DNA from: Oscillospiraceae bacterium
Lineage (GTDB): Bacteria > Bacillota > Clostridia > Oscillospirales > CAG-272
DNA length: 45,384 nucleotides
Assembly (NCBI GenBank): GCA_015063485.1
Contig: SVUA01000013.1
Location: forward strand, 1-45,384
Direction of reading: 5' to 3'
Part shown: piece by piece, positions 16,278-38,640 of the stretch
Layout: every line of letters starts with the position of its first letter
Numbering within the stretch: the stretch's first letter is position 1
Position numbers and translations under genes: made by a program
Notes under the pieces: model-generated
Seen by the model: only the letters and a program-made list of their open reading frames with translations
Told to the model about the DNA's origin: nothing
Databases searched by the model: none

Positions 16278-16380
16278 GGACGCGGAGGACGCGGGGGATG
16301 CGATGAGGGAACTTTTTGTAAAAAGTTCCCTCAAACTCCCTCAAAAACTTTCAATAAGGGGTTATTATAAATAACCGTTT
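16278..16380 (+). repeat. Stop-fused 3' module after groEL
   Basis: TAAGGACGCG begins at the stop codon and is followed by a second GGACGCG copy. Then comes a hairpin with perfect 13-base arms GAGGGAACTTTTT and AAAAAGTTCCCTC (16305-16317, 16320-16332), a CTCCCTCAAAAACTTT segment, and a small hairpin at 16360-16380 that is repeated identically at 22701-22721. Confidence 0.75.
16305..16332 (+). terminator. Hairpin terminator of groESL
   Basis: A perfect 13-base stem with a two-base loop lies 27 bases after the stop codon. The U-run is inside the stem and not after it, so termination strength is uncertain. Confidence 0.6.
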
Positions 16381-16423
16381 GTGGACAACTAAACTTGATA
16401 GTTTTTTCTATAAGGAAGAAAGT

Positions 16424-16628
16424 GGTCGGACGAGTCTTTTGACTCACCGACCACACTTTCTTTGGGTAAATGAAATTATTTTTTCTATTTAACAAAATTA
16501 CGCCCAATATCGTTAATTAAAGTAACTTATTACTCTAAACGATATTGGGCGTATTTCTTTATTTAGAAAAGCAAAACAAAATTATACCCATAAAACAGCG
16601 GTCGGTGAGTCAAAAGACTCGTCCGACC
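16424..16628. repeat. 205-base foldback element with hairpin ends
   Basis: The end sequences at 16424-16452 and 16600-16628 are perfect 29-base inverted repeats of each other. Each end is itself a hairpin (GGTCGG, GAGTC, TTTT, GACTC, CCGACC). In the middle a further perfect 15-base inverted repeat (16500-16514 and 16538-16552) has exactly the same centre, 16526. The region between is AT-rich with weaker mirrored similarity. No gene is seen. Together with the flanking 3' modules this accounts for the 487-base gap between groEL and pgsA. Confidence 0.85.
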
Positions 16629-16680
16629 TGTTTTTACATCAGAGAAAAAACATTCCCTTTTAATTTAACTAAACGTTTTT

Positions 16681-16764
16681 CCTATAAACTTCTTTCAAGA
16701 AGTTCTTTGAAGGTGTGGAAACTTTCTTTCAAGAAAGTTTCCACAAAACGCGTCCCCCGCGTCC
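16681..16764 (-). repeat. Stop-fused 3' module after pgsA
   Basis: On the minus strand the pgsA stop reads TAAGGACGCG and continues GGGGACGCG. A hairpin follows with perfect 15-base arms (16714-16728 and 16731-16745, TGTGGAAACTTTCTT type), then CTTCAAAGAACTTC. The same order of parts is seen after groEL and the DUF4830 gene. Confidence 0.75.
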
Positions 16765-17376
16765 TTATTTCTCGGGATCGAGATATTTCCAATAAGCCAT
16801 AATGTAATTTATTCCCGACCAAACGGTCATAAACATCATAAAGGCGATAGATGCCCAAGTTATCGGAACGATATCGGTACGCCAATCGGCGTTGAATATA
16901 ATACGAACGATCCACTGAAGAACAGGCTCGATAAAGACACTGCAAATAGCAACTATCTGCGACACGGTCTTTATTTTACCGAGATTATTTGCGGCAATAA
17001 CTATATTGCTTCCCGTAGAAACGACGAGTCTCATAGAGGTAACGGCAAGCTCGCGGAAAACGACTACTATAAGCGCGAATATCATGATGGTGCGAAGATT
17101 CGCGAACTTATAAAGGATAACGAACATAGCGCCTATTACCATAAATTTATCGGCAACAGGGTCTAAAAACTTACCGAAATCGGTGATAAGATTATATTTT
17201 CTCGCTATCTTTCCGTCAAGCATATCGGTTATAGACGTACCGATAAAAAGGATGGCGCAGATAATGCAAGAAATATAGAACGGCAGTATGCTTTCGGGCA
17301 ACATTCCCACGATAATGATAACGGGAACGAGGCACAAGCGAAGAACTGAAAGCTTATTTGGTAAATTCATTTTCAT
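16765..17376 (-). CDS. pgsA: CDP-diacylglycerol-glycerol-3-phosphate 3-phosphatidyltransferase
   Basis: An integral membrane enzyme that joins CDP-diacylglycerol and glycerol 3-phosphate to make phosphatidylglycerol phosphate, the first committed step to anionic phospholipids. The CDP-alcohol phosphotransferase motif D-G-x2-A-R-x8-G-x3-D-x3-D is complete at D54, G55, A58, R59, G68, D72 and D76. At 203 residues with about six membrane segments it is of normal size. GGGGGA precedes the ATG. It is the last gene of an operon behind rimO with a 16-base gap, a frequent arrangement in Firmicutes. Confidence 0.96.
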   Translation of the reverse strand: MKMNLPNKLSVLRLCLVPVIIIVGMLPESILPFYISCIICAILFIGTSITDMLDGKIARKYNLITDFGKFLDPVADKFMVIGAMFVILYKFANLRTIMIFALIVVVFRELAVTSMRLVVSTGSNIVIAANNLGKIKTVSQIVAICSVFIEPVLQWIVRIIFNADWRTDIVPITWASIAFMMFMTVWSGINYIMAYWKYLDPEK

Positions 17377-17392
17377 AATGATCCCCCTGAAT

Positions 17393-18739
17393 TTATTCGG
17401 CAGTAACGAGTCTGCCTATAAGATCGTAATCCATTACCTCACGGATCTTCACCTTAACGAACGATCCGGGAGCTACGCGCATATCCGCGCGGAAATATAT
17501 CTTTCCGTCTATCTCGGGAGCGTCATCAGTTCCGCGGCCGAAATGTATCTGCGCTACGGGATCGTACTCCTCGCAAAGAACGGTTATCACCTTACCGACC
17601 ATAGACTCATTTCTCTTTTCATTTATCTCAAGCTGTTCGCTCATGAGAATATCAAGTCTGTCTTGTTTGACCTGCTCGTCTATCTGATCAGGAAGATCGT
17701 ATGCGGCAGTTCCCTCTTCTCTCGAATACGGAAACGCACCCATATGCTCAAATTTTGCTTCTTTAACAAATTCGCAAAGCTCAACGAAATCTTCCTCGGT
17801 CTCACCCGGGAATCCAACGATAAACGTAGTACGAATAACGATATTGGGTATCTCTTTACGAAGCTTTGATATGACCTCGCGTATCATCTTACTGTCACCG
17901 TGACGATTCATGGCACGCAACATATTATCACTTATATGCTGAATGGGAAGGTCGATATACTTAAGTATTCTGTCGTTATCGCGAATTTCCGCGATAAGCT
18001 CGTCCGTGACCTTGTCGGGATAGCAGTAAAGAAGTCTTATCCACGGGATACTCGTCTCGTCGGTTATACGGCGGAGCAATTTTGCAAGGCTGTATTCACC
18101 GTAAAGGTCGAGTCCGTAACGCGTTATATCTTGCGCCACGATACAAAGCTCACGCACGCCAAGTGCTTCCATCTGCTTTGCTTCCTCAACGATGTCATTC
18201 ATCTCGCGGCTGCGGAATTTTCCGCGTATTGATGGAATTGCACAGTAAGCACAACGGTTGTCACAGCCTTCTGCAATTTTGAGATACGCCATATATTCGG
18301 GAGTCGTGAGAATACGGTCACCTCCAAGACGGACGGTATCCTTATCCTCAAACGAAGTATACTTTCTCTTCGAGCCCTTTTTCTTCTTTACCGTTACAGC
18401 TTCAATTGCCTCAACGATATTGTGTATACTTCCCACGCCGAGTACAGCATCGACCTCGGGAAGCTCGTCAAGTATAGCTTCTCTGTAACGCTCTGCAAGA
18501 CAACCCGTAACGACTATCGCTTTAAGTGTTCTGTTCTTTTTGAGCCAAGCGATATCGAGAATATTCTCAATAGACTCACGCTTTGCGCTTTCAATAAATC
18601 CGCAAGTATTTATAATAACTACGTCCGCCTCGGTCTCATCGGGTGTGATCTCATATCCCGCCATAGCGACCTCGTGCAACATAACCTCGGTGTCAAGCTG
18701 ATTTTTCGGACAACCGAGTGAAACAAATCCTACCTTCAT
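17393..18739 (-). CDS. rimO: Ribosomal protein S12 methylthiotransferase
   Basis: RimO attaches a methylthio group to the conserved Asp of ribosomal protein uS12. The 448 residues contain the N-terminal UPF0004 domain with iron-sulfur ligands C10, C46 and C80, the radical-SAM cluster cysteines C159, C163 and C166 in CDNRCAYCAIP, and a C-terminal TRAM domain (about 380-445) for substrate binding. The opening VGFVSLGCPKNQLDTE distinguishes it from MiaB. AAGGAG precedes the ATG. It sits between the HAD phosphatase and pgsA in a tight operon. Confidence 0.97.
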   Translation of the reverse strand: MKVGFVSLGCPKNQLDTEVMLHEVAMAGYEITPDETEADVVIINTCGFIESAKRESIENILDIAWLKKNRTLKAIVVTGCLAERYREAILDELPEVDAVLGVGSIHNIVEAIEAVTVKKKKGSKRKYTSFEDKDTVRLGGDRILTTPEYMAYLKIAEGCDNRCAYCAIPSIRGKFRSREMNDIVEEAKQMEALGVRELCIVAQDITRYGLDLYGEYSLAKLLRRITDETSIPWIRLLYCYPDKVTDELIAEIRDNDRILKYIDLPIQHISDNMLRAMNRHGDSKMIREVISKLRKEIPNIVIRTTFIVGFPGETEEDFVELCEFVKEAKFEHMGAFPYSREEGTAAYDLPDQIDEQVKQDRLDILMSEQLEINEKRNESMVGKVITVLCEEYDPVAQIHFGRGTDDAPEIDGKIYFRADMRVAPGSFVKVKIREVMDYDLIGRLVTAE

Positions 18740-18759
18740 TTTTGCTCCTTGTTTTATTA

Positions 18760-19413
18760 TTACTTAAATATTTTTTCAAGCTCAGATGGGTGATCTATCA
18801 CGATATCCGCGCCGGTCTCCTCAAGAACAGCTCGTCCGCGATATCCCCAAGCGCAACCCACGGAAAGCATTCCGGCGTTTTTGCCTGTCAGTATATCTAC
18901 GTCACTGTCTCCTATAAACGCCGTTTCGGACGCGTCAAAGCCAAGCTCCTTGGCTATCATGAGAGGCACTGTGGGATCGGGCTTTTTGGGCAGGTCTGTT
19001 TGCCCCATCGAGATAGATATTATACCGTCCGAGAACAAAATCTCGGATATCTTTTTGACATACCGATCCTGCTTATTTGAAAGTATCGCAAGTGTATATC
19101 CACGCTCTTTAAGAGTGTGCATCGCCTCGCTCATTCCCTCGTAACAGCCGTCTATGTGTGTATACGTTTGACCGTAAATATTATCGTAATATTTCAATCC
19201 CTCATTAACGAGCTCTTCGGGATCATCTGATGAAAACGACTTGCGTATAAGCACCAACGCTCCGTTTCCGATAGCCTCGCATATCTCATCGTAGCTGCGC
19301 GTAGGCTTTCCGAAACGCTCAAGAGTCAAATTCACAGCTTCTTGTATAGAAGGAAGCGTGTCCGCTATCGTTCCGTCAAGATCAAACATCAAAAGCTTTA
19401 TATTTTTATTCAT
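18760..19413 (-). CDS. HAD family hydrolase, phosphoglycolate phosphatase-like
   Basis: A cytoplasmic phosphatase of 217 residues with HAD motifs FDLDGTIADT (nucleophile D11, D13), LAILSNKQDR, and KPDPTVPLMI followed by FIGDSDVDI. A helical cap between motifs I and II places it with phosphoglycolate phosphatase and related PGP/PpaX enzymes; the true substrate is not certain. ATG 19413 is chosen because AGGAG is seven bases upstream. A longer GTG start at 19440 would lie upstream of the predicted transcript start. First gene of the operon with rimO and pgsA. Confidence 0.9.
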   Translation of the reverse strand: MNKNIKLLMFDLDGTIADTLPSIQEAVNLTLERFGKPTRSYDEICEAIGNGALVLIRKSFSSDDPEELVNEGLKYYDNIYGQTYTHIDGCYEGMSEAMHTLKERGYTLAILSNKQDRYVKKISEILFSDGIISISMGQTDLPKKPDPTVPLMIAKELGFDASETAFIGDSDVDILTGKNAGMLSVGCAWGYRGRAVLEETGADIVIDHPSELEKIFK

Positions 19414-19443
19414 AAAAATACTCCTTATATAATTTATCACTAT

Positions 19444-19472
19444 ATTATATCACACAACTAAGATTATGTCAA
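19444..19472 (-). promoter_or_regulatory. Consensus promoter of the HAD-rimO-pgsA operon
   Basis: On the minus strand TTGACA (19472-19467) and TATAAT (19449-19444), both perfect, are spaced by 17 bases. The start near 19437 leaves a leader of about 24 bases before ATG 19413. Confidence 0.82.
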
Positions 19473-19524
19473 TTCTCAAAGAAATGCTTTTAGCATATTT
19501 TTGCGTTTTTTTGAGAAAAAACGA

Positions 19525-19553
19525 TTGATTTTATCATAAAAATATGGTAAAAT
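19525..19553 (+). promoter_or_regulatory. Promoter of the tyrosine phosphatase gene
   Basis: TTGATT at 19525-19530 and TAAAAT at 19548-19553 with a 17-base spacer lie 30 bases before the start codon. Confidence 0.65.
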
Positions 19554-19582
19554 TTATTTAATATGTTTTTAGAGGTACAATT

Positions 19583-20620
19583 ATGAACATCTGCTTGAAA
19601 TCACCATTAGACAATGTAATAATTGAACAGCTTACAGAAAACCAACTCAAATTTCTTGAGGACAGAAAGCATCAGGAAATAGTCGCGGAAAATCCCGACT
19701 GGTTGAATCTTGTGAGAAAAGGTGAGGAAGATTCTATCCCTGATCCCGCAAAATTTGAATTTGATGCGGACGGCTTTGACGGGGACGTAAAATTTTACGT
19801 TCTTCTTTCCGAGAATGATGATATGTCAAATGCAAAAGAAACGCTTTGCGAAAGAAACTCGTGCGAGATATACAATCTATTCCTTGGGAAGCAATATTTT
19901 TGGAAAGTCGCGGCAAAACTCGGTGAAAAGCAGATAGACGAGTCCGAAACACGAAGCTTTACCACCTCTGCGCGCACACCTCGCTCTATCCGTGCGGGAG
20001 GTCTTAGCAATATCCGCGACCTTGGCGGTTACAAATGTTCGAACGGCAGACAGGTCAAGCAAGGACTTATTTACCGAGGTTGTGAGATGGAATTTCATCA
20101 CACCATTACCGAGCATGGAATATCGGTTCTCAAAGACGAGTTAAAGATACGCACAGACCTTGATCTCCGTATTGAAGCTGTTGACAAGGTATTTGCTTCC
20201 GCGCTTGGCGATAGTGTAAGCTTTACACTTATTCCAACGCTTGCGTACGAAAAATTTTTCGAAGACAAAGAGACTTGTAAGAAGTTGTTTAAGCTTCTTA
20301 CGGACGAGTCTACCTATCCCCACTATATGCACTGTTGGGGCGGTGCTGACCGCACGGGAACTTTTTCTCTCGTAATACTCGGAATGCTTGGCGTTGACAA
20401 GGAATTTCTTTTTGAGGACTATGAATACACTTCCCTCTCTATCTGGGGCAAGCGCAGTATTACCTCCGATCACTTCAAGGATCTTCTCGCCTCTCTTGAC
20501 GAATACGGAACTGAAAACGATTCCATTAACGAAAAGTGCAAGAACTTCTTACGCGCCTGCGGTATCACCGACGATGATATGGCAAAGATCCGCGATATCA
20601 TGACAGAACCCTGCAACTGA
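19583..20620 (+). CDS. Tyrosine-protein phosphatase with N-terminal Fn3-like domain
   Basis: The C-terminal half (about 140-345) is a DSP/IphP-like tyrosine phosphatase with the signature HCWGGADRTGT: nucleophile C251 and phosphate-binding R257 in C-x5-R. The preceding SNIRDLGGY and LIYRG are also hallmarks of this family. Residues about 55-130 form beta strands ending YFWKVAAKLG and RSFTTSARTPRSI, resembling a fibronectin type III-like domain. There is no signal peptide, so action is probably cytoplasmic. The substrate, protein phosphotyrosine or phosphoinositide, is unknown. AGAGG precedes the ATG. It has its own promoter and precedes typA without clear functional link. Confidence 0.9.
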   Translation: MNICLKSPLDNVIIEQLTENQLKFLEDRKHQEIVAENPDWLNLVRKGEEDSIPDPAKFEFDADGFDGDVKFYVLLSENDDMSNAKETLCERNSCEIYNLFLGKQYFWKVAAKLGEKQIDESETRSFTTSARTPRSIRAGGLSNIRDLGGYKCSNGRQVKQGLIYRGCEMEFHHTITEHGISVLKDELKIRTDLDLRIEAVDKVFASALGDSVSFTLIPTLAYEKFFEDKETCKKLFKLLTDESTYPHYMHCWGGADRTGTFSLVILGMLGVDKEFLFEDYEYTSLSIWGKRSITSDHFKDLLASLDEYGTENDSINEKCKNFLRACGITDDDMAKIRDIMTEPCN

Positions 20621-20727
20621 TCTTAAAAATCATTAAAAAATCTCTCATTTTTTGCGATATGCACAACAACTTTTTTCTATAAGGAGAAAAAATCGTCGTT
20701 TCTAACATTTCGCAAAATCAAAAAATG

Positions 20728-20736
20728 TGGTATAAT
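20728..20736 (+). promoter_or_regulatory. Extended -10 element upstream of typA
   Basis: TGGTATAAT contains a perfect TATAAT with an upstream TG. No good -35 hexamer lies at the right distance, consistent with an extended -10 promoter. Confidence 0.5.
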
Positions 20737-20788
20737 AATAAATTGTGAAAATATAATTCGGATTTTGTATATTAAAGGAGATCACGTT

Positions 20789-22624
20789 GTGATAAGAAAC
20801 GATTTAAGAAACATTGCTATCATCGCGCACGTTGACCACGGTAAAACTACCCTCGTTGACGAAATGCTAAAGCAGGGCGGTATCTACCGTGAAAATCAGG
20901 AAACGGTTACTCGCGTTATGGACTCGAACGACCTCGAAAAAGAGAGAGGTATTACTATCCTCGCTAAAAATACGGCTGTACACTACAAGGACGTTAAAAT
21001 AAACCTTATCGATACCCCAGGTCACGCTGACTTCGGCGGTGAGGTAGAGCGTATTCTCAAAATGGTAAACGGAGTTATCCTTCTCGTTGACGCGGCAGAA
21101 GGTCCTATGCCTCAGACGCGCTTCGTTCTTCAGCGTGCGCTTGAGCTTAACCACCGCGTTATTATCGTTATAAACAAGATAGACAAGCCCGACGCTCGCC
21201 TAGGTGAAGTCGAGGACGAGATACTTGAGCTTCTCATTGACCTCAACGCCTCTGACGAACAGCTCGACAGCCCCATGCTCTACTGCTCGGGAAGAGCGGG
21301 TACGGCTACCGAAGACCCAAGCGTTGCGGGAACCGATCTCGTTCCTCTCTTTGAAAAGATACTCAATTACATTCCCGCTCCCGAGGGTGATGAGAACGGA
21401 GAGCTTCAGCTCCTCGTATCATCTATCGACTACAACGATTACGTTGGTCGTATCGGTATCGGACGTATCGAGCGCGGTTCTATCAGAACCAATCAGGAAG
21501 CGTATATCTGCAACTATCACTCGGGCGCTGCTCCAAAGCGCACGAAGATAGTCGCGCTCTTCCAGATAGACGGTCTTTTGCGCGTTCCTGTTGAGAACGC
21601 AAAAATGGGTGATATCGTATGCTTCTCGGGTGCTGAAAACATCACTATCGGAGATACTATAACGAGTATTTCCGCCCCCGAACCGCTTGAATTCGTTAAG
21701 GTCAGCGAGCCGACACTTGAGATGACCTTCTCGGTAAACGACAGTCCCTTTGCAGGAAAGGAAGGTAAATTCGTTACCTCCCGCCAGCTCCGCGACCGTC
21801 TTTACAAGGAAACGCTCAAAGACGTTTCTCTTCGTGTTTCTGACGGTGAGACTACCGATGAATTTAAGGTTGCGGGAAGAGGCGAGATGCATCTCTCTAT
21901 CCTTATCGAAAATATGCGCCGCGAGGGCTATGAGATGCTTTGCTCCAATCCACGCGTGCTTTACAAGGAAATAGACGGAGTTAAATGTGAGCCTATGGAG
22001 CGCGTTACGCTTGACGTTCCCTCCGATTACGTTGGAGCGGTCGTTGAAAAGCTCGGTCAGCGCAAGGGAGATCTTCTTGAAATGAATCCCGTCGGAAACC
22101 GTATGCGTATCGAATATTCTATTCCCTCCCGTTGCCTCTTCGGTTATCGTTCCGAATTTCTTACCGCTACTCGCGGAGAAGGTATTATGAACTCTATCTT
22201 CGACGGATATCAGGCTTACAGAGGAGAGGTAATTATGAGATTTACAGGCTCGCTCGTCGCTTCCGAAACGGGTGAAACCACTCGCTACGGTCTGTTTAAC
22301 ACGCAGGAACGCGGCAACCTCTTCGTCGGTCCTCAAACTCCCGTTTACGAGGGTATGATAGTCGGTGAAAACCCTAAGAACGACGATATCGCCGTTAATC
22401 CTTGTAAGAAAAAACAGCTTACCGCTATCCGTTCAGCAGGTGCTGATGAAAAGCTCCTCCTTACCCCTCCGATAATCTTTAGCCTTGAAGAAGCTATCGA
22501 ATTCATCACCGATGACGAGCTTATTGAGGTCACGCCTAAATCTATTCGTCTCCGTAAAAAGATCCTTAATACCGAGCTTCGTATGAAAGCTATGATGAAA
22601 GCCCGCCGCGAAGCCGGTAAATAA
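20789..22624 (+). CDS. typA: Translational GTPase TypA/BipA
   Basis: A ribosome-associated GTPase of 611 residues that aids 50S assembly and stress adaptation. G-domain motifs are AHVDHGKTTLVDEML (G1), RGITI (G2), DTPGHADFGGEV (G3) and NKIDKPDA (G4). They are followed by EF-Tu domain 2, EF-G-like domains III and V and the BipA-specific C-terminus ending ELRMKAMMKARREAGK. The start GTG at 20789 is chosen because AAAGGAG is eight bases upstream and homologues begin MIRNDLRNIAI. The stop codon opens a stop-fused repeat module. Confidence 0.97.
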   Translation: MIRNDLRNIAIIAHVDHGKTTLVDEMLKQGGIYRENQETVTRVMDSNDLEKERGITILAKNTAVHYKDVKINLIDTPGHADFGGEVERILKMVNGVILLVDAAEGPMPQTRFVLQRALELNHRVIIVINKIDKPDARLGEVEDEILELLIDLNASDEQLDSPMLYCSGRAGTATEDPSVAGTDLVPLFEKILNYIPAPEGDENGELQLLVSSIDYNDYVGRIGIGRIERGSIRTNQEAYICNYHSGAAPKRTKIVALFQIDGLLRVPVENAKMGDIVCFSGAENITIGDTITSISAPEPLEFVKVSEPTLEMTFSVNDSPFAGKEGKFVTSRQLRDRLYKETLKDVSLRVSDGETTDEFKVAGRGEMHLSILIENMRREGYEMLCSNPRVLYKEIDGVKCEPMERVTLDVPSDYVGAVVEKLGQRKGDLLEMNPVGNRMRIEYSIPSRCLFGYRSEFLTATRGEGIMNSIFDGYQAYRGEVIMRFTGSLVASETGETTRYGLFNTQERGNLFVGPQTPVYEGMIVGENPKNDDIAVNPCKKKQLTAIRSAGADEKLLLTPPIIFSLEEAIEFITDDELIEVTPKSIRLRKKILNTELRMKAMMKARREAGK

Positions 22625-22721
22625 GGACGCGTGGACGCGATTATGTTACTTTCTTCTTTCGCGAAAGAAGAAAGTAACCAAAGAAGAAAGCATTGCAAGC
22701 GGTTATTATAAATAACCGTTT
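22625..22721 (+). repeat. Stop-fused 3' module after typA
   Basis: TAAGGACGCG starts at the stop codon and GGACGCG follows. Then a hairpin with perfect 16-base arms (22645-22660 and 22663-22678, GTTACTTTCTTCTTTC type) is followed by CCAAAGAAGAAAG and by a small hairpin at 22701-22721 identical to 16360-16380. The hairpin type matches that after icd. Confidence 0.75.
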
Positions 22722-22750
22722 GGAAAATTTAAATTTGTTTGTTTTTTTAG

Positions 22751-22873
22751 GACAGTCGAGGACGCCTGTCCCTACAGAGTTAATTTGAATCAAATTGTTT
22801 TTTCATCGCCTTACGGCGAGGTATATATAAACGATTTTCTCAAATCTTGTAGGGACAGGCGTCCTCGACTGTC
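22751..22873. repeat. REP pair in inverted orientation (BIME-like)
   Basis: Two perfect 26-base inverted copies (22751-22776 and 22848-22873) each contain a stem GGACAG / CTGTCC around loop GCGTCCTCGA, flanked by TGTAGG. A central hairpin TCGCC-TTAC-GGCGA (22806-22819) has the same centre. The loop is identical to that of the palindromes in the transposase gene at 4475 and 4647. With the two 3' modules these elements fill the 366-base gap between typA and the DUF4830 gene; no gene is seen. Confidence 0.85.
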
Positions 22874-22917
22874 TGCTTTATTCAATCAAAGCCAAACAAA
22901 TTGGCTACATATAAAAC

Positions 22918-22990
22918 CTTCTTAGTGAAGTTCTTTGAGAGCTCGAGAACTTTCTTTCAAGAAAGTTCTCGAACGCCTCCCCCCGCATCC
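22918..22990 (-). repeat. Stop-fused 3' module after the DUF4830 gene
   Basis: On the minus strand the stop reads TAAGGATGCG followed by GGGGGAGGCG. A hairpin with perfect 14-base arms (22943-22956 and 22959-22972, TCGAGAACTTTCTT type) and CTCTCAAAGAACTTC follow. It is the same class as after pgsA, with altered but still paired outer stem bases. Confidence 0.7.
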
Positions 22991-23473
22991 TTATTTTTCA
23001 AAGCCGTGGATAAAGCCTGTAACGTCAGCGGAGCAGATATCGCCGCCTATAACGCGGTTACGGTAGACAAGTACGTTTGCGTAGACCGTACCGTTTGCGC
23101 CCTCGTAATTTGTGACCTCGTATGTATAGCGCATGACCTTTTTCTTTTTATATTTTGAGAGGTCAAGACCTTGACGGCGTTGTATCTCGTTATACCCCGT
23201 AAATATCTTATCGAACTCCGAGGGAATAGTAACTTCAACGCTCTCACGAGGCTGTGCCGAGACCTCCCAACCGAACTGAGCGAGAAAGGCTATACGGTCT
23301 TCATTCGTTTTCACGTCATCATATTTAATTTCAACGTCCTTTGACGAAGCGATGAAGCCGTCGTCATTTCCGTATGCGGGAATAAAAGCTATCAAGGTTA
23401 TGAGCATAACGAGTGAAACGCAGATGACCGCAAAAAATTTAAGCGTGCTTGCGCGCAAGGAATAGATAAACAT
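22991..23473 (-). CDS. DUF4830 domain protein, membrane-anchored
   Basis: A 160-residue protein with a single N-terminal membrane segment (about 9-30) and an extracytoplasmic domain containing FLAQFGWEVSAQPRESVEVT, IPSEFDKIF, YNEIQRRQGLDLSKY and VYANVLVYRNRVIGGDICS, a pattern matching DUF4830 of Clostridia. Function is unknown. The start at 23473 is chosen for GGGAGG five bases upstream; the frame also allows ATG 23494, which sits inside a hairpin arm. That hairpin covers the ribosome binding site. It follows rodA and proS on the same strand and may respond to cell-envelope state (inference). Confidence 0.85.
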   Translation of the reverse strand: MFIYSLRASTLKFFAVICVSLVMLITLIAFIPAYGNDDGFIASSKDVEIKYDDVKTNEDRIAFLAQFGWEVSAQPRESVEVTIPSEFDKIFTGYNEIQRRQGLDLSKYKKKKVMRYTYEVTNYEGANGTVYANVLVYRNRVIGGDICSADVTGFIHGFEK

Positions 23474-23531
23474 AAGATCCTCCCGTTTTTCCATATAATT
23501 CTAATCAATTATATGGAGACGAGAGGATCTT
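23474..23531 (-). promoter_or_regulatory. Leader hairpin sequestering the DUF4830 ribosome binding site
   Basis: The arms AAGATCCTC and GAGGATCTT, together with an 11-base perfect inner pair (TCCATATAATT / AATTATATGGA), fold the 70-base gap between rodA and the DUF4830 start. In mRNA the GGAGG-containing arm, directly before ATG 23473, would be paired. Control of translation or a processing site are both possible. Confidence 0.55.
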
Positions 23532-23543
23532 TATGATTACGTA

Positions 23544-24677: not shown

Positions 24678-24765
24678 TTTATCCTCCTTTCTACCCTTTA
24701 TGCCTACTAATAAGAGTGAAGAGCAAAGAGACAAGACCTCTTCACTTTTCACTCTTACCTTTTTC

Positions 24766-26205: not shown

Positions 26206-26258
26206 TTCTATATCATGCCTTTCTTTAAAGTTATTCGAATATATAAGTTATCTTATAT

Positions 26259-29426: not shown

Positions 29427-29486
29427 TATTTTTCTCCCGCTCTTTTAATTTTAACAACGTCAAATAAACAGTCTTTTTATTGTTCC

Positions 29487-30554: not shown

Positions 30555-30594
30555 AAGTATTCCTCCAAAGTTATCGTTTATTGAATTGCTCTAA

Positions 30595-31335
30595 TCAAAA
30601 AGGAAACCAAGGTATCATACGTAAAAGCTCGTACACAACAGGTATCAAAAGCGCGGGTAAGAGATTTCCCACTTTTACTTTTTTGGGCGAGAGCAGATTC
30701 AAGCCAACCGCAAATATAAGTACAGAACCAACGCCCGAGAGCATCATTATAAGATGATCGGACATAAAGGGTTTGATAAGTCCCGCAAATATCGTAAAAA
30801 ATCCTTGATAAACACCTATCGCAAGCGCGGAAAATATCGCTCCCAAGCCATACACCGACGCAAACACCGCAACTATAACCATATCGAGTATGGATTTCAC
30901 AAAAAGTGTTTGTGAGTTTCCCGTGAGTGCCTCGTCAAGAGGCCCGCATATTGCCATCGCGCCGACGCACGTAACAAGAGATGCCGTTACAAAGCCGTCA
31001 ACGAATTTATTGTCTCCGGAGCGCTTCACCGCTTTTTTTAGCTTTTCACCCATGGTATCAAGTCCATGTTCTATGTTGATAAGCTCTCCGAGCAAGCCAC
31101 CAAGCACGAGTGATATTACTATTAGCATAGTATATCCCGAGCTGAGTGTACCGTCTTCATTGATTGTAAAAATCATCTGAAACGCGCCTGCCGCTCCTAT
31201 AAATATAGTAGCAAGTCCGCACGCCTGCATAAGCGTTTGCCGATAACGTTCTTTCAATCCACCCTTACACAAAAGTCCGATCAGACCTCCGACAATGACT
31301 GCCAGAACGTTTACGAGAGTTCCTAAGCCTCTCAT
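30595..31335 (-). CDS. DUF554 family membrane protein
   Basis: A 246-residue protein with about seven membrane segments. It carries the DUF554 (YdfK-like) features LGTLVNVLAVIVGGLIGLLC at the N-terminus, LGGLLGELINIEHGLD in the middle and VTCVGAMAICGPLDEALTGN. The function of the family is unknown. AAGGAAG precedes the ATG. It is probably the first gene of the run with the EIIC-like and VTT genes. The glycosylase gene upstream is on the same strand about 60 bases away. Confidence 0.92.
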   Translation of the reverse strand: MRGLGTLVNVLAVIVGGLIGLLCKGGLKERYRQTLMQACGLATIFIGAAGAFQMIFTINEDGTLSSGYTMLIVISLVLGGLLGELINIEHGLDTMGEKLKKAVKRSGDNKFVDGFVTASLVTCVGAMAICGPLDEALTGNSQTLFVKSILDMVIVAVFASVYGLGAIFSALAIGVYQGFFTIFAGLIKPFMSDHLIMMLSGVGSVLIFAVGLNLLSPKKVKVGNLLPALLIPVVYELLRMIPWFPF

Positions 31336-31398
31336 TTTTTATCACTTCCTTGAAATTTAAATTGCATTTTTTATCATGTAATTTATGATTTGAAAAAT

Positions 31399-31923
31399 TT
31401 AGCTTGTCGCAATAAATCTCCATGGTCTGTCACGATCTTCGGGTTTAGCATAATCTATCCCAACACGCTTGCCCGTTATATATTTCGACACAAATCCATC
31501 ATCTTCTAGCCAAAGTCCGTTTTCACGAACAAGTTCCTTTTTGTTTAACGTGCGATCAATCCGCATGAACTTTGTTACCCTCCCGGGCCCTGTAACATTT
31601 TCAACTCCGCGTATAAGTACAGCCTCGGGATGACCTTCTTCACCCGTTGTAATATTCAACAGCGAATGTATTCCGTAGCAAAGATAAACGTAAGCGTTTC
31701 CACCCGCGTGATACATAATATCAGTCCTTTGCGTTCTGCCCTTATGAGCATGACACGCCGTATCCTCTTCTCCAAAATAGCACTCGGTTTCGGTAATACG
31801 GGCGCGCAAGACCTTACCGTCTTCTTCTCTGCACAGTATCTTTCCGATAAGCCAGGGCGCGATATCAACAGCGGAACGCCTGAATTCACTTGGCAGTATA
31901 ACTCTGCCTTTAGGCAAACTCAT
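31399..31923 (-). CDS. DNA-3-methyladenine glycosylase (AAG/MPG family)
   Basis: A base-excision repair enzyme that removes alkylated purines from DNA. The 174 residues contain the catalytic region RITETECYFGEEDTACHAHK, where the glutamate of ITETE fits the general base, then GRTQRTDIMY, GGNAYVYLCYGIHSLLNITT, and GPGRVTKFMRID. The ATG at 31923 is used because GGGAG is eight bases upstream; a longer form of 194 residues has no such site. It is slightly shorter than the usual 190-200 residues. It diverges from the hydratase operon. Confidence 0.93.
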   Translation of the reverse strand: MSLPKGRVILPSEFRRSAVDIAPWLIGKILCREEDGKVLRARITETECYFGEEDTACHAHKGRTQRTDIMYHAGGNAYVYLCYGIHSLLNITTGEEGHPEAVLIRGVENVTGPGRVTKFMRIDRTLNKKELVRENGLWLEDDGFVSKYITGKRVGIDYAKPEDRDRPWRFIATS

Positions 31924-32021
31924 AAGATAAACTCCCTTTTTCCGTAATAAAAAAATTATATCACAAAAAAAGAAGATTTTCAATAGCAGGATGATTTTTC
32001 TTTTAAATATCGTTATTTTTA

Positions 32022-32050
32022 TTGACTTTTTTTAAATTTTGAGGTATAAT
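32022..32050 (+). promoter_or_regulatory. Promoter of the hydratase-icd operon
   Basis: TTGACT at 32022-32027 and TATAAT at 32045-32050 with a 17-base spacer. The predicted start near 32057 leaves a 60-base leader. Confidence 0.8.
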
Positions 32051-32076
32051 ATTTCGTGTGCGTCTTTAATTAATAT

Positions 32077-32088
32077 TGAAACGTTTCA
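32077..32088. promoter_or_regulatory. LacI-family-type operator TGAAACGTTTCA
   Basis: This perfect 12-base palindrome with central CG lies about 20 bases downstream of the predicted transcript start. Its form matches operators of LacI/GalR-type sugar repressors and is two bases shorter than a standard CcpA cre site. Binding here would block transcription. Confidence 0.6.
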
Positions 32089-32118
32089 CAAAGCAAATTC
32101 TAAAAAAGAGGTATCAAA

Positions 32119-34368
32119 ATGTTAGACACAGTAAAGCTCAATGCAAACGGTGTATTTCTTGTAGACGGCAAACTCTCAAATTCGGCAGATATTGCTCCCG
32201 CAGAGGCAAGAAAGAACACTATTGCTTATTCAATTCTTAACGCTCATAACGTATCAGATAATGACGAGGCTCTTCGCATTCGCTTCGACGCTCTCGTCTC
32301 ACACGATATTACATACGTCGGAATCATTCAAACCGCCCGTGCAAGCGGACTTACGGAATTCCCTATCCCTTACGCTCTTACCAACTGCCACAACTCCTTG
32401 TGCGCAGTCGGAGGAACTATCAACGAGGACGACCACGTTTTCGGTCTTTCGGCGGCTAAAAAGTACGGCGGTATCTATGTTCCCGCAAACCAGAGCGTAA
32501 TACACTCCTACGCAAGAGAAGAGCTTTCGGGCTGCGGTAAAATGATACTTGGCTCTGACTCCCACACCCGTTACGGCGCGCTTGGAACGATGGGCGTCGG
32601 CGAGGGCGGTCCTGAGCTTGTAAAGCAGCTCCTTAAGAATACATACGATATCAAAGCGCCCGAGGTCGTTCTCGTTTATCTCACGGGAACACCCAAAAAG
32701 GGTATCGGACCGCACGACGTGGCTATCGCTCTCGTCGGAGCTACCTTTGGCAACGGATTCGTTAAGAACAAGGTCCTTGAATTTGTAGGACCCGGAGTTA
32801 AGAATCTTTCTATCGATTTCAGAAACGGAATCGACGTTATGACGACCGAAACTACTTGTCTGTCTTCTATTTGGGAGACCGACGAGATAACGAAGAAGCA
32901 CTACGAGGCTCACGGAAGAGTCGAAGACTACAAGGAATTGAAGCCGGGTAAAGTTGCTTATTACGATTCGCTTATCGAAATTGACCTTTCGAAGATGGAA
33001 TCTATGATAGCTCTTCCCTTCCACCCCTCGAACGCATATACGATACATGAGTTCGTTGAGAACGCGGACGAGATACTTGCAAAGGTCGAAGAAGAAGCTA
33101 AAGCAAAGTTCGGCAAGTGCAACCTTGACCTTCGTTCAAAGGTCAAGAACGGAACTGTCCTTGCAGACCAAGGTATTATCGCGGGTTGCGCGGGCGGTAT
33201 GTTCGACAGTATCGATGAAGCCGCTTCTATACTTCGCGGAGAAAGCACGGGCAACGGCTACTTCTCGCTCTCGGTTTATCCCACGAGCGTTCCCGTTTCG
33301 CTTGAATTAACCAAAATAGGCGTTACCGCAGATCTTCTTTCCGCGGGCGCTGTAATAAAGCCCTCCTTCTGCGGTCCTTGCTTTGGCGCGGGAGACGTTC
33401 CCGCTAACAACGGTCTGTCCTTGAGACATACTACGCGTAACTTTCCCAACCGCGAAGGCTCAAAGCCCGGTGAAGGTCAGCTTGCGGGTGTTGCGCTCAT
33501 GGATGCTCGCAGTATCGCGGCGACCGCTCGTAACGGCGGTATAATAACTGCGGCTACCGATATTGATTACGAATATACTCCCCACGAGTATCATTTTGAC
33601 GCCTCGGTCTACGGCAAACGCGTTTACAACGGCTACGGAAAGCCTGACGCAGACGCGGAGCTTATCCTCGGTCCGAACATAACCGATTGGCCTAAGCAAT
33701 ATGAGCTTGCGGATAATCTGCTCGTCAAGCTTGCGGCGGTAATTCACGACCCCGTAACGACGACCGACGAGCTTATTCCCTCGGGTGAGACATCTTCTTA
33801 CCGCTCAAATCCCCTCCGTCTTTCCGAATTTGCGCTCTCTCGCCGCGTTCCCGAATACGTTGGACGCTCGAAGGCTGTAAGCGCGGTCGAGTCAAAGAGA
33901 CGCTCGGGCGAAAATCCCGAAGAGCTTATGAATGTTCTTTCAAAGGTCGGAAACGCGGAAGAGCTTATTAAAACTACGCAGTTCGGCTCTTGCGTATTCG
34001 CAAACAAGCCCGGTGACGGCTCTGCGCGTGAGCAGGCGGCTTCCTGTCAGAAGGTTCTCGGCGGATTTGCAAATATCTGCTACGAATTCGCTACCAAGCG
34101 TTACCGCTCCAACTGCATCAACTGGGGTATTCTTCCCTTTACGCTTGCGGAAGGCACGGAGTTCCCCTATGCAGAAGGCGATTACGTATTCGTCGGCGGT
34201 ATCCGCGAGGCAATTATAAACAACAAAGAAGAATTTGATGCAACGGTTATCCGCGCAAACGGCGAGACATCTTCCATAAAGCTTTACGTAAAGGGACTTA
34301 CCGAGGACGAAAAGGAAATAATCCTCGACGGTTGCCTTATGAATTATTACGCGGCACAGAATAAATAA
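32119..34368 (+). CDS. Aconitase-family hydratase
   Basis: A 749-residue member of the aconitase superfamily, predicted to interconvert citrate and isocitrate in the cytoplasm. The [4Fe-4S] ligands fit C357 (IIAGCAGGMF), C418 and C421 (SFCGPC), at almost the same spacing as in mitochondrial aconitase (358, 421, 424). Substrate-site pieces GSDSHTRYGALGTMGVGEGG, TTRNFPNREGS, GSAREQAAS and RSNCINWGILPF are present. The usual SCTNS is replaced by GCAGG, which places it in the divergent hydratase branch (YbhJ-like), so true aconitase activity is inferred mainly from icd in the same operon. AAAGAGG precedes the ATG. Confidence 0.9.
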   Translation: MLDTVKLNANGVFLVDGKLSNSADIAPAEARKNTIAYSILNAHNVSDNDEALRIRFDALVSHDITYVGIIQTARASGLTEFPIPYALTNCHNSLCAVGGTINEDDHVFGLSAAKKYGGIYVPANQSVIHSYAREELSGCGKMILGSDSHTRYGALGTMGVGEGGPELVKQLLKNTYDIKAPEVVLVYLTGTPKKGIGPHDVAIALVGATFGNGFVKNKVLEFVGPGVKNLSIDFRNGIDVMTTETTCLSSIWETDEITKKHYEAHGRVEDYKELKPGKVAYYDSLIEIDLSKMESMIALPFHPSNAYTIHEFVENADEILAKVEEEAKAKFGKCNLDLRSKVKNGTVLADQGIIAGCAGGMFDSIDEAASILRGESTGNGYFSLSVYPTSVPVSLELTKIGVTADLLSAGAVIKPSFCGPCFGAGDVPANNGLSLRHTTRNFPNREGSKPGEGQLAGVALMDARSIAATARNGGIITAATDIDYEYTPHEYHFDASVYGKRVYNGYGKPDADAELILGPNITDWPKQYELADNLLVKLAAVIHDPVTTTDELIPSGETSSYRSNPLRLSEFALSRRVPEYVGRSKAVSAVESKRRSGENPEELMNVLSKVGNAEELIKTTQFGSCVFANKPGDGSAREQAASCQKVLGGFANICYEFATKRYRSNCINWGILPFTLAEGTEFPYAEGDYVFVGGIREAIINNKEEFDATVIRANGETSSIKLYVKGLTEDEKEIILDGCLMNYYAAQNK

Positions 34369-34380
34369 AGGAATTTCACC

Positions 34381-35211
34381 ATGACAGAATATAAACTGGG
34401 TCTTGCAACTCTTACCTCAAACGTTGACATTGTCGATCAGCTTGATATTATTAAAGGGGTTGGATTTGATGCTTTCTTTACAGGTTGGATACCTGACAGA
34501 ACCGAGGAGATCGCCAACAAAGCTGCAAAATTAGGTCTTATCCAACAGTCTATCCACTCCCCTTTCAGCAGCAATTATAGAGTCAGCCATCTTTGGAACG
34601 GAGGGGAGGAAGGCGATCGCGTAACTAACGCACTCATTGATTGTGTAAAGGACTGTGCGCGCTTCGACATTCCCGTAATGGTCATTCACCCATTTATAGG
34701 ATTCAAGGATCACACTCCGACAGAGGTTGGCCTTGACAATTACGCTCGCGTCATCGAAGTTGCTAACAAGCTCGGAGTAAAGCTCGGATTTGAAAATGTT
34801 GAGGGTGAGGAATATCTTGCCGCTATCATGGAGCGTTTTTGGAATGAACCCTCTCTTGGTTTCTGTCTTGATACGGGACACGAGATGTGTTACAACAGAC
34901 ACAAGGATATGTTAGCGCTTTACGGTGAAAAGCTTGTACATACGCACTTCAATGACAACCTCGGTGTTCGCGGCGAAGATATAACCTTTGAGGACGATCT
35001 TCATTTCATCCCCACCGACGGAATCGCAGATTGGCACAATATAATGGAACGCATAAGAAAAACGGGATACCAAGGTATTATTATGAGTGAGCTTATTATG
35101 AACCCAAGTCGCCCGGGAACTAACCCCATAACCGACGGATACTCTAAAATGACAATAGAACAGTTTATAGCTCTGGCATATGAAAAGATAACAAAAGCAA
35201 TTTCAATGTAA
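34381..35211 (+). CDS. Sugar phosphate isomerase/epimerase-like TIM barrel protein
   Basis: A 276-residue AP-endonuclease-2-type TIM barrel. Probable metal ligands are the glutamate in GFENVEG, D and H in FCLDTGHE, H in LVHTHFNDN, and the terminal glutamate in IIMSELI, as in xylose isomerase-like and IolE/IolI-type enzymes. PTDGIADWHNIMERI is the usual C-terminal loop. It acts on a sugar, ketose or inositol derivative that cannot be named. It begins 12 bases after the hydratase stop, with its AAAGGA overlapping that stop, and is followed by a glycosidase-like gene. Confidence 0.88.
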   Translation: MTEYKLGLATLTSNVDIVDQLDIIKGVGFDAFFTGWIPDRTEEIANKAAKLGLIQQSIHSPFSSNYRVSHLWNGGEEGDRVTNALIDCVKDCARFDIPVMVIHPFIGFKDHTPTEVGLDNYARVIEVANKLGVKLGFENVEGEEYLAAIMERFWNEPSLGFCLDTGHEMCYNRHKDMLALYGEKLVHTHFNDNLGVRGEDITFEDDLHFIPTDGIADWHNIMERIRKTGYQGIIMSELIMNPSRPGTNPITDGYSKMTIEQFIALAYEKITKAISM

Positions 35212-35236
35212 TTATAAAATAAAAAGGAGTTTTATC

Positions 35237-37252
35237 ATGAAAACACGTAAGGAATCTTTCTTTGGTATACATTGTGACTTTCACGCAAAGCCCTCAAAGT
35301 GCGACACGATAGGCGCGACTCTTCGTGAAGAGGATATCCGCGAGATCTGTCAAACCTTGAAGCCCGATTTTATTCAGATAGACTGTAAGGGACATCCCGG
35401 TTGGGCATCCTACCCCTCAAAGATAGGCAATGCTATGCCTAATTTCGTCGGAGACCCTCTGGCTCTTTGGAGAAAGGTCACTCGCGAGGAAGGCGTTGCG
35501 CTTTATATGCATTATTCGGGTGTTTATGATATCAAATACTGCGACGAGCACCCCGAGGAATGTACGCTCCGTGCTGACGGAAAGCTTGATCAAGGTACGA
35601 CAAGACTTGACGGAAAATACGTTGACGAGCTTTTGATCCCTCAGCTTTGCGAGCTGGCAGAAAAATATGAAGTCGACGGCTTCTGGGTAGACGGCGAATG
35701 CTGGAGAGCTGTTCCCGACTACCACCCAGAAACGCTCGCGGCTTTTGAAAAGGCTACGGGGATCGATCTTGACGGAAAAATACCAGCAACAAAAGAAGAT
35801 GAATATTATTTTGAATATAAGGAATACCACAGAGAGCTTTTCCGCAAGTATCTGAGGCATTACGTAGACACGCTTCACGAAAAGTTCCCGAATCTCCAGA
35901 TCACTTCCAACTGGGCGTTCAGCGACCATATGCCCGAAAAGGTATCGGTAAACGTTGACTATCTCTCGGGTGACTTCAGCAGCATGAACTCCTTCAACTC
36001 CGCAAGATACGCGGGACGCGCTCTCGCTCAACAGAATTACGCATGGGATCTCATGTCGTGGAACTTCCGTATAAAAGCTTGCGGAAGAGCGACCTGCGTT
36101 ACAAAGCACGATGTTCAGATGCTTCAGGAAGCAGCGGCTGTTCTTTCTCTCGGCGGAGCTTATCAGAACTACGTTATGCAGAACCCCGACGGCTCACCTC
36201 AGATGCACGAGCTTCGCAACCTCAAAAAGCTTTCCGAGTTCGTTCGCGAGCGCAAGGAGTTCTGTTTCCGCGGAAAGATAGTTCATCAAGCGGCTATTCT
36301 GCTTTCAACCTATGATAGAGCGAGAGAAATGAGCCGACTTTACTCCCGTAACGGCTACAAAAAGGTTATCGGTCTTACCGCACTTATGGCAGATATCGGT
36401 CAGTCCTTTGAGATAGTCGGTGAGCACACACTTGAGGGCAACTGCAACGATTACAAGATGATAGTTATCCCCGAGCTTTACTACGGTCTTGCGCCCGAGA
36501 CGGTAAAAGAGCTTCTTGACTACGCAAAGAACGGAGGAAAGCTCGTGCTTGTCGGAAAGAATACCTGTAATTTCTTTGCAAACATGGGCGCTCCTTTCAC
36601 CTACGTTGATCATTCCGATTATTATGAGATCGGCAAAAAGGCGTACGATAACGGCGGTGATGACGGTCACGGCGGACCTGCCGAGGCGGTCTACAAGTCC
36701 TATTACTTCTCGCTCGACAACGAAAAATTCGGCACGTTCTTCTCTCCCTGTGAGATACAGGCTGAAAACGGTACAGTAATTGCTTCGCTTTCCGAGGAGA
36801 TGCGCGGAAAGAGCTATCCTCTGGCTGTAACCGTTCCCCATGGAAGCGGAAGCGTGACCGCTATCGGATTTGACGTAGGCTCACAGTATATGGACGGAAC
36901 GCAGTATCTGCACCGTACTCTTATGAAGACAGTCGCAGACAGTCTTTACATTCCTATGCTCAAGGTCGAAAACGCGCTCGGGTTCCTTGAGGTCGTTTGT
37001 CTTGAAAAAGACGGCAAGTTGATGCTCCAGCTCTTGAACGCAAACGGTCACCACTCCGATCCCAATGCGGTAACCGAGGACTTTATCTCGCCTATCGTCG
37101 ACATAAAGCTCTCTATCGAGCTTGACGCAAAGCCCGAAAAGCTTATTCTTCAGCCTGAGGGCCGTGAGCTTGCGTTCGAGTACAAGGACGGCAGAGCTTA
37201 TGTAGAGCTTAACAGACTCGATATCCACAGCGTTATCGAGGTAGTAAAATAA
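35237..37252 (+). CDS. Glycoside hydrolase-like protein (GHL6 / GH42 trimerisation-like)
   Basis: A cytoplasmic protein of 671 residues without signal peptide. Residues about 1-340 form a TIM-barrel of the hypothetical glycosyl hydrolase 6 (alpha-amylase-like) type: FFGIHCDFHA, DFIQIDCKGHPG, VALYMHYSGVYD, VDGFWVDGECW and LQITSNWAFSD. The acidic residues of WVDGE and the later YLSGDF are candidates for catalysis. Residues about 370-560 resemble the GH42-type trimerisation/class I glutaminase-like domain (IVIPELYYGL, LLDYAKNGGKLVLVGKN). The C-terminal beta domain is short. AAGGAG precedes the ATG. The substrate is unknown; the neighbour isomerase suggests an intracellular sugar or glycoside. 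Confidence 0.75.
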   Translation: MKTRKESFFGIHCDFHAKPSKCDTIGATLREEDIREICQTLKPDFIQIDCKGHPGWASYPSKIGNAMPNFVGDPLALWRKVTREEGVALYMHYSGVYDIKYCDEHPEECTLRADGKLDQGTTRLDGKYVDELLIPQLCELAEKYEVDGFWVDGECWRAVPDYHPETLAAFEKATGIDLDGKIPATKEDEYYFEYKEYHRELFRKYLRHYVDTLHEKFPNLQITSNWAFSDHMPEKVSVNVDYLSGDFSSMNSFNSARYAGRALAQQNYAWDLMSWNFRIKACGRATCVTKHDVQMLQEAAAVLSLGGAYQNYVMQNPDGSPQMHELRNLKKLSEFVRERKEFCFRGKIVHQAAILLSTYDRAREMSRLYSRNGYKKVIGLTALMADIGQSFEIVGEHTLEGNCNDYKMIVIPELYYGLAPETVKELLDYAKNGGKLVLVGKNTCNFFANMGAPFTYVDHSDYYEIGKKAYDNGGDDGHGGPAEAVYKSYYFSLDNEKFGTFFSPCEIQAENGTVIASLSEEMRGKSYPLAVTVPHGSGSVTAIGFDVGSQYMDGTQYLHRTLMKTVADSLYIPMLKVENALGFLEVVCLEKDGKLMLQLLNANGHHSDPNAVTEDFISPIVDIKLSIELDAKPEKLILQPEGRELAFEYKDGRAYVELNRLDIHSVIEVVK

Positions 37253-37328
37253 TCGTATCATATCCGCTTTTGCGGTATTGATAAATAAACAAATCCAAAT
37301 TTTTCAAACTGTTCGGAGGTATTGAACT

Positions 37329-38555
37329 ATGAAAAAAATCGAAAAAATCCAAATGAAAACGCCGCTCGTTGAAATGGACGGCGACGAAATGACCAGAATT
37401 CTCTGGAAAATGATCAAAGACGAACTTATTCTTCCTTTTGTTGACCTCAAGTCCGAGTATTATGACCTCGGTCTTGTTGAGCGCGAAAAGACGAAGGACA
37501 AGGTCACATTTGACAGCGCTTACGCTACGCAGAAGTACGGCGTTGCTGTAAAGTGCGCTACCATCACGCCCAACAAGCAAAGAGTTGAGGAGTACAACCT
37601 CACTGAAATGTGGAAGAGCCCCAACGGAACTATCCGCGCTATCCTTGACGGTACTGTTTTCCGCGCTCCTATCCTCATTGACTCGATAAAGCCCGTTGTA
37701 CGCAACTGGACAAAGCCGATAACCATCGCGCGTCACGCATACGGTGATGTTTACAAGGCAACCGAGCACCGCGTTACAGAGCAAGGCAAGGCTGAACTTG
37801 TTTTCACAAACGAAAAGGGCGAGGAGACCTTCCGCGAGACTATCTATGACTTCGAGTGCGGCGGTGTTCTTCAGGGTCAGTACAACAAGGATTCCTCTAT
37901 CGAGTCCTTTGCTCACTCTTGCTTCAAATACGCAATAGACACAAAGCAGGATCTCTGGTTTGCTACAAAGGATACCATCTCCAAGAAGTACGACCAGACC
38001 TTTAAGCTTACCTTCCAAGAGATATTCGACAGAGATTACAAGGCTAAATTTGACGAGCTTGGAATCGAGTATTTCTATACCCTTATCGACGACGCAGTCG
38101 CTCGCGTTATCCGCAGCGAAGGCGGTTACATCTGGGCGTGCAAGAACTATGACGGAGACGTTATGTCCGACATGGTATCTACCGCGTTCGGCTCGCTCGC
38201 TATGATGACCTCAGTTCTCGTTTCTCCCGACGGAAAGTACGAGTACGAGGCGGCTCACGGCACTGTTACCCGTCACTACTACCGCTACTTAAAGGGCGAG
38301 GACACCTCGACGAACCCCATGGCGACTATCTACGCTTGGTCGGGCGCGTTCCGCAAGAGAGGTGAGCTTGATGATCTTCCCGAGCTTGTCGACTACGCAA
38401 ATAAGCTTGAAGAGGCTTGCATCGATACCCTTAACGACGGTATTATGACTAAAGACCTCGTTGGTCTTGTAAGCGAAGGCTATAAGGCTACCGCTGTCAA
38501 CTCCGCCGACTTCATTAAGGCTATCCGCGAAAGACTTGAAAAGAAGTTAGCTTAA
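37329..38555 (+). CDS. icd: NADP-dependent isocitrate dehydrogenase
   Basis: It oxidises isocitrate to 2-oxoglutarate and CO2, giving NADPH. The 408 residues are of the eukaryotic-like homodimeric type (subfamily II), with [20 protein letters not shown] at the start, [13 protein letters not shown] and [19 protein letters not shown] for substrate binding, and [13 protein letters not shown] with [14 protein letters not shown] for NADP. GGAGG is nine bases upstream of the ATG. It is the last gene of the operon headed by the hydratase. Its stop codon is joined to a stop-fused repeat module, and a terminator follows. Citrate synthase is not in the window. Confidence 0.97.
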
Positions 38556-38640
38556 GGAAACGCGGGGACGCGAGGGACGCGTGTTACTTTTCTTCTTTTA
38601 AAAAAGAAGAAAAGTAACCAAAAGAAGAAAACGAAATAGT
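38556..38640 (+). repeat. Stop-fused 3' module after icd
   Basis: From the stop codon the sequence reads TAAGGAAACGCGGGGACGCG and then another GGGACGCG. A hairpin with perfect 17-base arms (38583-38599 and 38602-38618, GTTACTTTTCTTCTTTT type) and CCAAAAGAAGAAAA follow, the same order as after typA. Confidence 0.75.

Follow-up and report, generated by a model that had tools for sequence, protein, structure and literature searches.

The window analysed here, a stretch of 45,384 nucleotides (contig SVUA01000013.1) from an Oscillospiraceae bacterium, contains five genes, groEL, pgsA, typA, a DUF4830 gene and icd, whose stop codons are each followed by a GC-rich tract and a perfect hairpin. All five belong to a single dispersed family of palindromic elements, non-coding and non-autonomous, of which we parsed 79 copies in the genome of this uncultured member of the gut Clostridia (assembly of 1.97 Mb, 87% complete). 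The layout of a copy is a GGAYGCG tract, usually of one to three units with a period of about 9 nt, then a perfect hairpin, then a tail. The tail covaries with the 3' arm of the hairpin as its mirror image. The family is also placed at stop codons, with TAG enriched among them, is found in excess at convergent gene junctions and turns over among congeners. We read it as a PIT/REP-like element, non-autonomous and mobile now or in the past, that would settle at stop codons at operon ends, and give this reading a probability of about one half.

The mirror relation is plainest in class A, which has arms of the form TTACTTT...AAAGTAA. Here the tail reads as the purine 3' arm in mirror image, and so complements the 5' arm in parallel; the lengths of the T-runs vary between copies and the tail changes along with them. 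The mirror extends over the full arm in 36 of the 40 class A copies of this genome, a number that none of 10,000 permutations of the tails reached (mean 8.0, maximum 18), and in 19 of 20 copies from other congeners. Thirteen of the 40 came from a genome sample (10 mirrored) and 27 were fetched by a pattern demanding CAAA after the hairpin (26 mirrored), which does not constrain where the tail has its G. When only arm types that separate a mirror from a direct repeat were counted, 26 of 29 copies in this genome and all 8 elsewhere were mirrored and none was a direct repeat. We use this count instead of an earlier tally of 35 of 39 'asymmetric' arms, because some of those arms turn symmetric with an added T on the loop side. 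We also searched 391 genomes of the class with a pattern open to mirror and direct tails alike; its 14 matches were all mirrored and came from two genomes, nine from our own (overlapping the class A set) and five from a genome of another family. Three class A pattern scans of viral contigs matched 1, 1 and 0 contigs, both matches being mirrored, and one class C scan matched none.

Classes B to D have mixed stems and show the same relation. Their tails repeat the 3' arm, outer stem included, in mirror image, and TG at the switch between purines and pyrimidines is rendered as C. The 27 of 39 copies with an AC/pyrimidine junction had a mean exact mirror run of 10.8, compared with 7.25 for permuted tails (maximum 8.67 in 1,000) and 6.2 without the junction rule. 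Over all 39 copies the mirror score was 6.59, against 5.08-5.41 for three other relations, and permuted tails gave a mean of 5.18 (maximum 5.72 in 300). A tail that is a direct copy of the 3' or the 5' arm, or a mirror of the 5' arm, was rejected on its lower mean scores in class A as well as in classes B to D, and 90 control intergenic hairpins from the sample presented no mirror (3.64 versus 3.68 with shuffled tails). Copying of DNA gives direct or inverted repeats, not mirror ones, and the mirror covariation therefore suggests that selection acts on a fold with the tail alongside the stem. Stretches with their purines in the 3' arm go with a purine tail that runs antiparallel to these purines, and those with their purines in the 5' arm go with a pyrimidine tail that runs parallel to them, a geometry that fits a potential intrastrand triplex.

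The genome sample, which includes the window, covers 433,667 bases with 304 genes found by a simple gene caller (74% of bases covered). In these genes GGA[CT]GC[GA] has 20 starts at 0-3 nt past the stop, where the flanking positions predict 0.35, and further peaks at +8 to +11 and +16 to +19 indicate a stop-anchored tract with a period of about 9 nt. Twelve of the 15 tandem tracts in the sample lead into a perfect family hairpin. An initial compilation comprised 26 copies with hairpin and tract, 22 of them behind a gene stop (TAA 18, TGA 3, TAG 1; one of the 22 without any tract) and four without a gene; the hairpin loop is 4 in 26 copies, and class A has a spacer of some six bases (GTAACC or GTAAGC). 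Class-specific hairpin pattern searches, targeted stretches and two extra sample copies brought the number to 79. Left out were seven sites without a perfect hairpin, three tandem tracts also lacking one (C35 44647, C35 111105 and C38 1226), and C1 57804, where a class A-like hairpin stands with no tract. The stems are at least 10 bp long and are paired in all hairpin classes.

Placement relative to genes is strict. The stop of an open reading frame lies at most 60 nt upstream in 59 of the 79 copies and at most 30 nt upstream in 54. In these 54 stop-linked copies the first GAYGC-like unit is found 0-5 nt past the stop in 44 and 6-9 nt past it in four, with none recognised in six. The distance from stop to hairpin within the 30-nt cut ranges from 0 to 27 nt with no clustering, and the hairpin begins within 15 nt of the stop in 26 of the 54.

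A preliminary description of this DNA had taken the stop codon to belong to the module in each case. As a fixed part of the module it was rejected, since the 54 stops comprise 38 TAA, 9 TGA and 7 TAG. Compared with ordinary stops in the sample (TAA 190, TGA 89, TAG 6; n = 285), TAG is over-represented (7/54 versus 6/285, p = 0.0014) and TGA is somewhat depleted (p = 0.033). Because of the TAG enrichment a weaker form of the claim survives, namely that the purine-rich left end of the element probably sometimes supplies the last base of the stop, the gene keeping T or TA. The rnc gene of this genome ends in TAG with GGGACGCG directly after it. Of 29 orthologous rnc ends one is truncated by its contig. 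Among the 28 readable ones, with hairpins called by eye, the stop is TAG in six of nine with a family hairpin versus one of 19 without (p = 0.0014, a value that ignores the relatedness of the genomes), and the protein ends close to the same residue whether the element is there or not. In four congeners (L281, L283, L274 and L278) another left end, GTTAGTTTGTG-like, abuts the rnc TAG before a related hairpin. Because this left end also starts at a TAG stop, we consider the tract to be an interchangeable left end and not the core of the element.

The comparison of orthologous 3' ends proposed in the preliminary description was carried out for typA, groEL, icd and rnc, and the element was found in some congeners and not in others at the same stop; most orthologous stops are without it. 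Calls at typA, groEL and icd were made by eye. At the typA stop, two of 23 relatives have tract and hairpin (G022, and G026 about 20 nt past the stop), three have a hairpin without tract, two have one in the opposite orientation, and the rest have ordinary ends. Three of 24 relatives have a recognisable or degenerate tract with hairpin behind groEL and three have a hairpin only; behind icd the numbers among 22 relatives are three (G018, G014 and G022) and four or five respectively. The hairpin class may differ among relatives at one stop, which favours repeated gain and loss over simple inheritance. A class A hairpin followed by CAAA is present in 24 of the 30 genomes of the genus, with 39 matches in our own and 67 in G016, compared with 3 for the reversed pattern in all of them. 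These results agree with the earlier proposal of a dispersed 3'-end element with a preferred insertion point, given the many copies, the strict stop placement and the presence or absence in congeners.

The next called gene is convergent at 16 of 21 element stops in the sample and at 66 of 283 ordinary stops (p = 1.5e-6), or 66 of 155 once close tandem genes are set aside (p = 0.005), in counts where the simple gene caller may overlook some neighbours. The copy at C35 53601 stands inside an apparent operon, between two of its genes. A common function was sought among ten element-bearing genes and none emerged; they encode, among others, a P-type ATPase, serine hydroxymethyltransferase, a member of the ornithine carbamoyltransferase family, RNase III and a DUF4830 protein.

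Within the window (Table 1), the five sites follow genes for GroEL, TypA, NADP-dependent isocitrate dehydrogenase, PgsA and a DUF4830 protein, and all five stops named in the preliminary description are real, each continuing into a tract and a perfect hairpin. It had given TAAGGA followed by a GACGCG-type tract for all five; a tract is indeed present at each, but icd has TAAGGAAACGCG there and not GACGCG directly. Its two hairpin classes had to be replaced by four sequence types, and it had overlooked the mirror relation of the tail to the 3' arm. Its genome search was also run: TAAGGANGCG alone is barely enriched (44 matches versus 36 for the reversed pattern), and the 20 occurrences of TAAGGA[ACT]GCG in the sample divide into 10 that start an element, either at a stop or 3 nt past it, and 10 elsewhere without a hairpin. 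The signal is accordingly the tract plus the hairpin. The best-matching named TypA loci among the matches listed are in gut and rumen Clostridia genomes.

Table 1. Positions in the window of the five family copies and of the other repeats mentioned in the text
Feature	Position	Strand	Remarks
groEL tract	16278..16303	+	3 GGAYGCG units, directly after stop TAA 16275-16277
groEL hairpin	16304..16333	+	class B, stem 13, loop 4
groEL tail	16334..16352	+	mirror of 3' arm, TG to C at purine/pyrimidine switch
pgsA tract	16746..16764	-	2 units, after stop TAA 16767-16765
pgsA hairpin	16714..16745	-	TGTGGAAACTTTCTT type, stem 14, loop 4
pgsA tail	16699..16713	-	mirror
typA tract	22625..22644	+	2 units, after stop TAA 22622-22624
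typA hairpin	22645..22678	+	class A, GTTACTTTCTTCTTT type, stem 15
typA tail	22679..22690	+	mirror, CAAAGAAGAAAG
DUF4830 gene tract	22973..22990	-	after stop TAA 22993-22991
DUF4830 gene hairpin	22943..22972	-	class D, TCGAGAACTTTCTT type, stem 13
DUF4830 gene tail	22929..22942	-	mirror
icd tract	38556..38582	+	3 units, first diverged, after stop TAA 38553-38555
icd hairpin	38583..38618	+	class A, stem 16
icd tail	38619..38631	+	mirror, CAAAAGAAGAAAA
Second inverted-repeat element	22745-22776, 22848-22878; 4475-4505, 4642-4673		
Third repeat	12168-12188, 12430-12450, 39500-39520		CAAATTGCGGTTTATCG type
Facing repeat copies	~16424-16455, ~16599-16630		GGTCGGACGAGTCTTTTGACTCACCGACC

Other repeats accompany the family. 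A second dispersed inverted repeat, with GGACAGTCGAGGACGCCTGTCCCTACA-like ends and a CTTACGGCGA core, lies downstream of several family copies. The end of a third repeat is like the TTTRTC end right after which 11 of the 20 gene-less family copies begin, some of them forming head-to-head composites. The stretch that separates the convergent groEL and pgsA genes contains two facing repeat copies with GGTCGGACGAGTCTTTTGACTCACCGACC, and a second GroEL gene of the genome (L166, 78% identical) has no element.

Put together, the core of the element is a hairpin (5' arm, short loop, 3' arm) with a tail mirroring the 3' arm, which could in principle form an intrastrand triplex; in class A the coding strand of the gene would do so through a purine motif and the template strand through a pyrimidine motif. 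A purine-led left end, here the GGAYGCG tract, stands upstream. The gene would give T or TA and purines of the element would complete TAA, TAG or TGA, leaving the protein unchanged. Copies may have spread as mobile DNA recognised through a folded single strand and moved by some further activity, and would have settled at stops because the purine end preserves the stop and because they are tolerated at operon ends; the hairpin in the 3' untranslated region would have at most a secondary effect on the transcript. A bolder version, in which this is a new mobile class kept by selection as a three-stranded fold, switching strands under the TG to C rule and inserting into and rebuilding stops, we put forward tentatively and think rather unlikely.

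Several observations weigh against this reading. Twenty-seven of the 40 class A copies in this genome and all 20 from congeners came through the pattern demanding CAAA, and two class A copies from the sample that lack the mirror have quite different tails. Stops are not the sole site, as 20 of the 79 copies have no open reading frame stop, 11 of these adjoining the TTTRTC end of another repeat, and insertion after TA cannot account for the nine TGA stops. Two relatives carry a hairpin behind typA in reverse orientation. Orthologous 3' ends are too diverged to have yielded a clean empty site or a target duplication. No Y1_Tnp (RAYT) transposase was found in the 87%-complete assembly, in a search confined to that family. 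Finally, in the passages of PMC4666352 on which we draw, a stable triplex in vivo is unsupported for the E. coli motif, purine-motif triplexes are said to be unable to form in RNA, in which pyrimidine ones can, and A/T-rich motifs make up most of those found in scrambled genomes, which is a caution for class A.

The chief rival to the insertion-preference reading is that a transcript-end function came first, selection having retained the hairpin next to the stop to protect or define mRNA 3' ends, as an exonuclease barrier or a block to convergent transcription. The strict stop placement, the pairing of stems across classes, the excess at convergent gene ends and the hairpins near orthologous stops in several congeners would all be expected from it. 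The preliminary description had likewise considered a conserved transcript-end function, which the terminator scans did not support. Intrinsic terminators were rejected, as the hairpins have no U-tract and none of 21 was scored as one, in scans that are insensitive (25 of 283 ordinary ends were flagged within 80 nt, and 35 of 155 in a second scan); a candidate separate terminator after the element was flagged by these two scans in 2 and then 4 of the 21. Most orthologous stops do without the element, an RNA hairpin needs no mirror tail, and purine triplexes do not form in RNA, as the same passages of PMC4666352 state. We regard this alternative as improbable, though weightier than the others.

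Much less likely is a REP family whose driving Y1 (RAYT) transposase has been lost or is missing from this assembly. The palindromes do lie downstream of genes, and Y1_Tnp matches occur in 12 of the 30 genomes of the genus (10 above cut-off), but many copies are present here without any Y1 gene and no GTAG tag stands at the hairpin feet, on which grounds a RAYT-driven REP was rejected. Just behind it in our estimation comes control of translation, by which a stop-proximal hairpin, or TAAGGA, which we take to resemble the Shine-Dalgarno core, would stall or recycle terminating ribosomes. The 26 hairpins that start within 15 nt of the stop fit such a role, but the spread of distances without a cluster does not; congeners keep a related hairpin behind quite different left ends, and the mirror tail is left unexplained. 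Chance or low complexity, with hairpins born of slippage and short A/G runs in the tails that merely look mirrored, would suit the simple A/T-rich arms of class A and the varying number of tract repeats, but is strongly disfavoured by the arm-specific covariation, which exceeds permuted tails in class A and recurs in the mixed sequences of classes B to D, and by the fact that direct copying does not give mirror repeats.

Among known repeats and signals, two further candidates were rejected. A CsrA sponge made of GGA units is contradicted by the absence of PF02599 from all 30 genomes of the genus, the same search being positive in 3 of 14 control genomes, and the four Rfam matches up to E=1 were all below gathering scores and none lay on the five hairpins. 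The likeness to GTAG/CGTC REPs, as these are described in the passages of PMC3733652 that we cite, consists in short palindromes mostly 3' of coding regions, often head-to-head, and, for CGTC REPs, in having no known transposase. These passages name phyla that do not include Firmicutes and give stems of 8-9 bp for CGTC REPs, versus at least 10 bp here; by reading, none of the 79 copies has GTAG before or CTAC after the hairpin, nor CGTC at either hairpin foot. E. coli REPs near stops (less than 16 nt) stall or recycle ribosomes according to Liang et al. 2015, as cited in the part of PMC12306157 that we used. These too are palindromes a few nt past a stop; here, in contrast, it is the tract that usually starts at the stop, with the hairpin 0 to 27 nt away.

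The closest likeness is to PIT elements (BoxC, TMECO; Hoyne and Maher; Holder et al. 2015), described in passages of PMC4666352 as dispersed repeats with a pyrimidine arm, a purine arm and a mirror purine block. Triplex-capable bacterial repeats, for which E. coli has been the main subject of study, were by this account named in 2000 and remain without a function, and the E. coli PIT element showed neither promoter nor terminator activity. The preliminary description knew of no name for the element; a partial answer is that the class A core has the PIT layout. Class A presents the blocks of PIT class II (Y-R-R on one strand with a mirror third block, stems of 6-15 nt and loops of 1-6 nt) together with a pyrimidine motif on the other strand, and the E. 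coli PIT elements vary in presence between related strains as the family does among congeners. In classes B to D the purine block does not stay on one strand along the whole stem. Because of this switch only class A is compared with the PIT family, and the published PIT search, which as presented in those passages demands one purine-rich and one pyrimidine-rich block, would miss such variants. The E. coli PIT motif follows one consensus. The present family, by comparison, is A/T-rich, belongs to Clostridia, has its place at stop codons and a GGAYGCG left end, and comprises several subfamilies with covariation of arm and tail, of which B to D move the purines to the other strand partway along the stem. 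The main text of PMC4666352 contains none of the terms stop codon, Clostridi- and Firmicutes, although motifs like class A may already sit unremarked in its database of nearly a million potential triplexes. Among the hits listed in literature searches to which most subscription journals were closed, none described repeats of this kind from gut Clostridia. The PIT layout is known, and what is new is the mirror-tail covariation and the strand-switching variants in a family placed at stop codons. For triplex-capable repeats, which have no known job or way of spreading, subfamilies that change arm and tail together are evidence, from natural three-way covariation, for the importance of the third strand, and a fixed place at stop codons provides a direct handle on their insertion or function.

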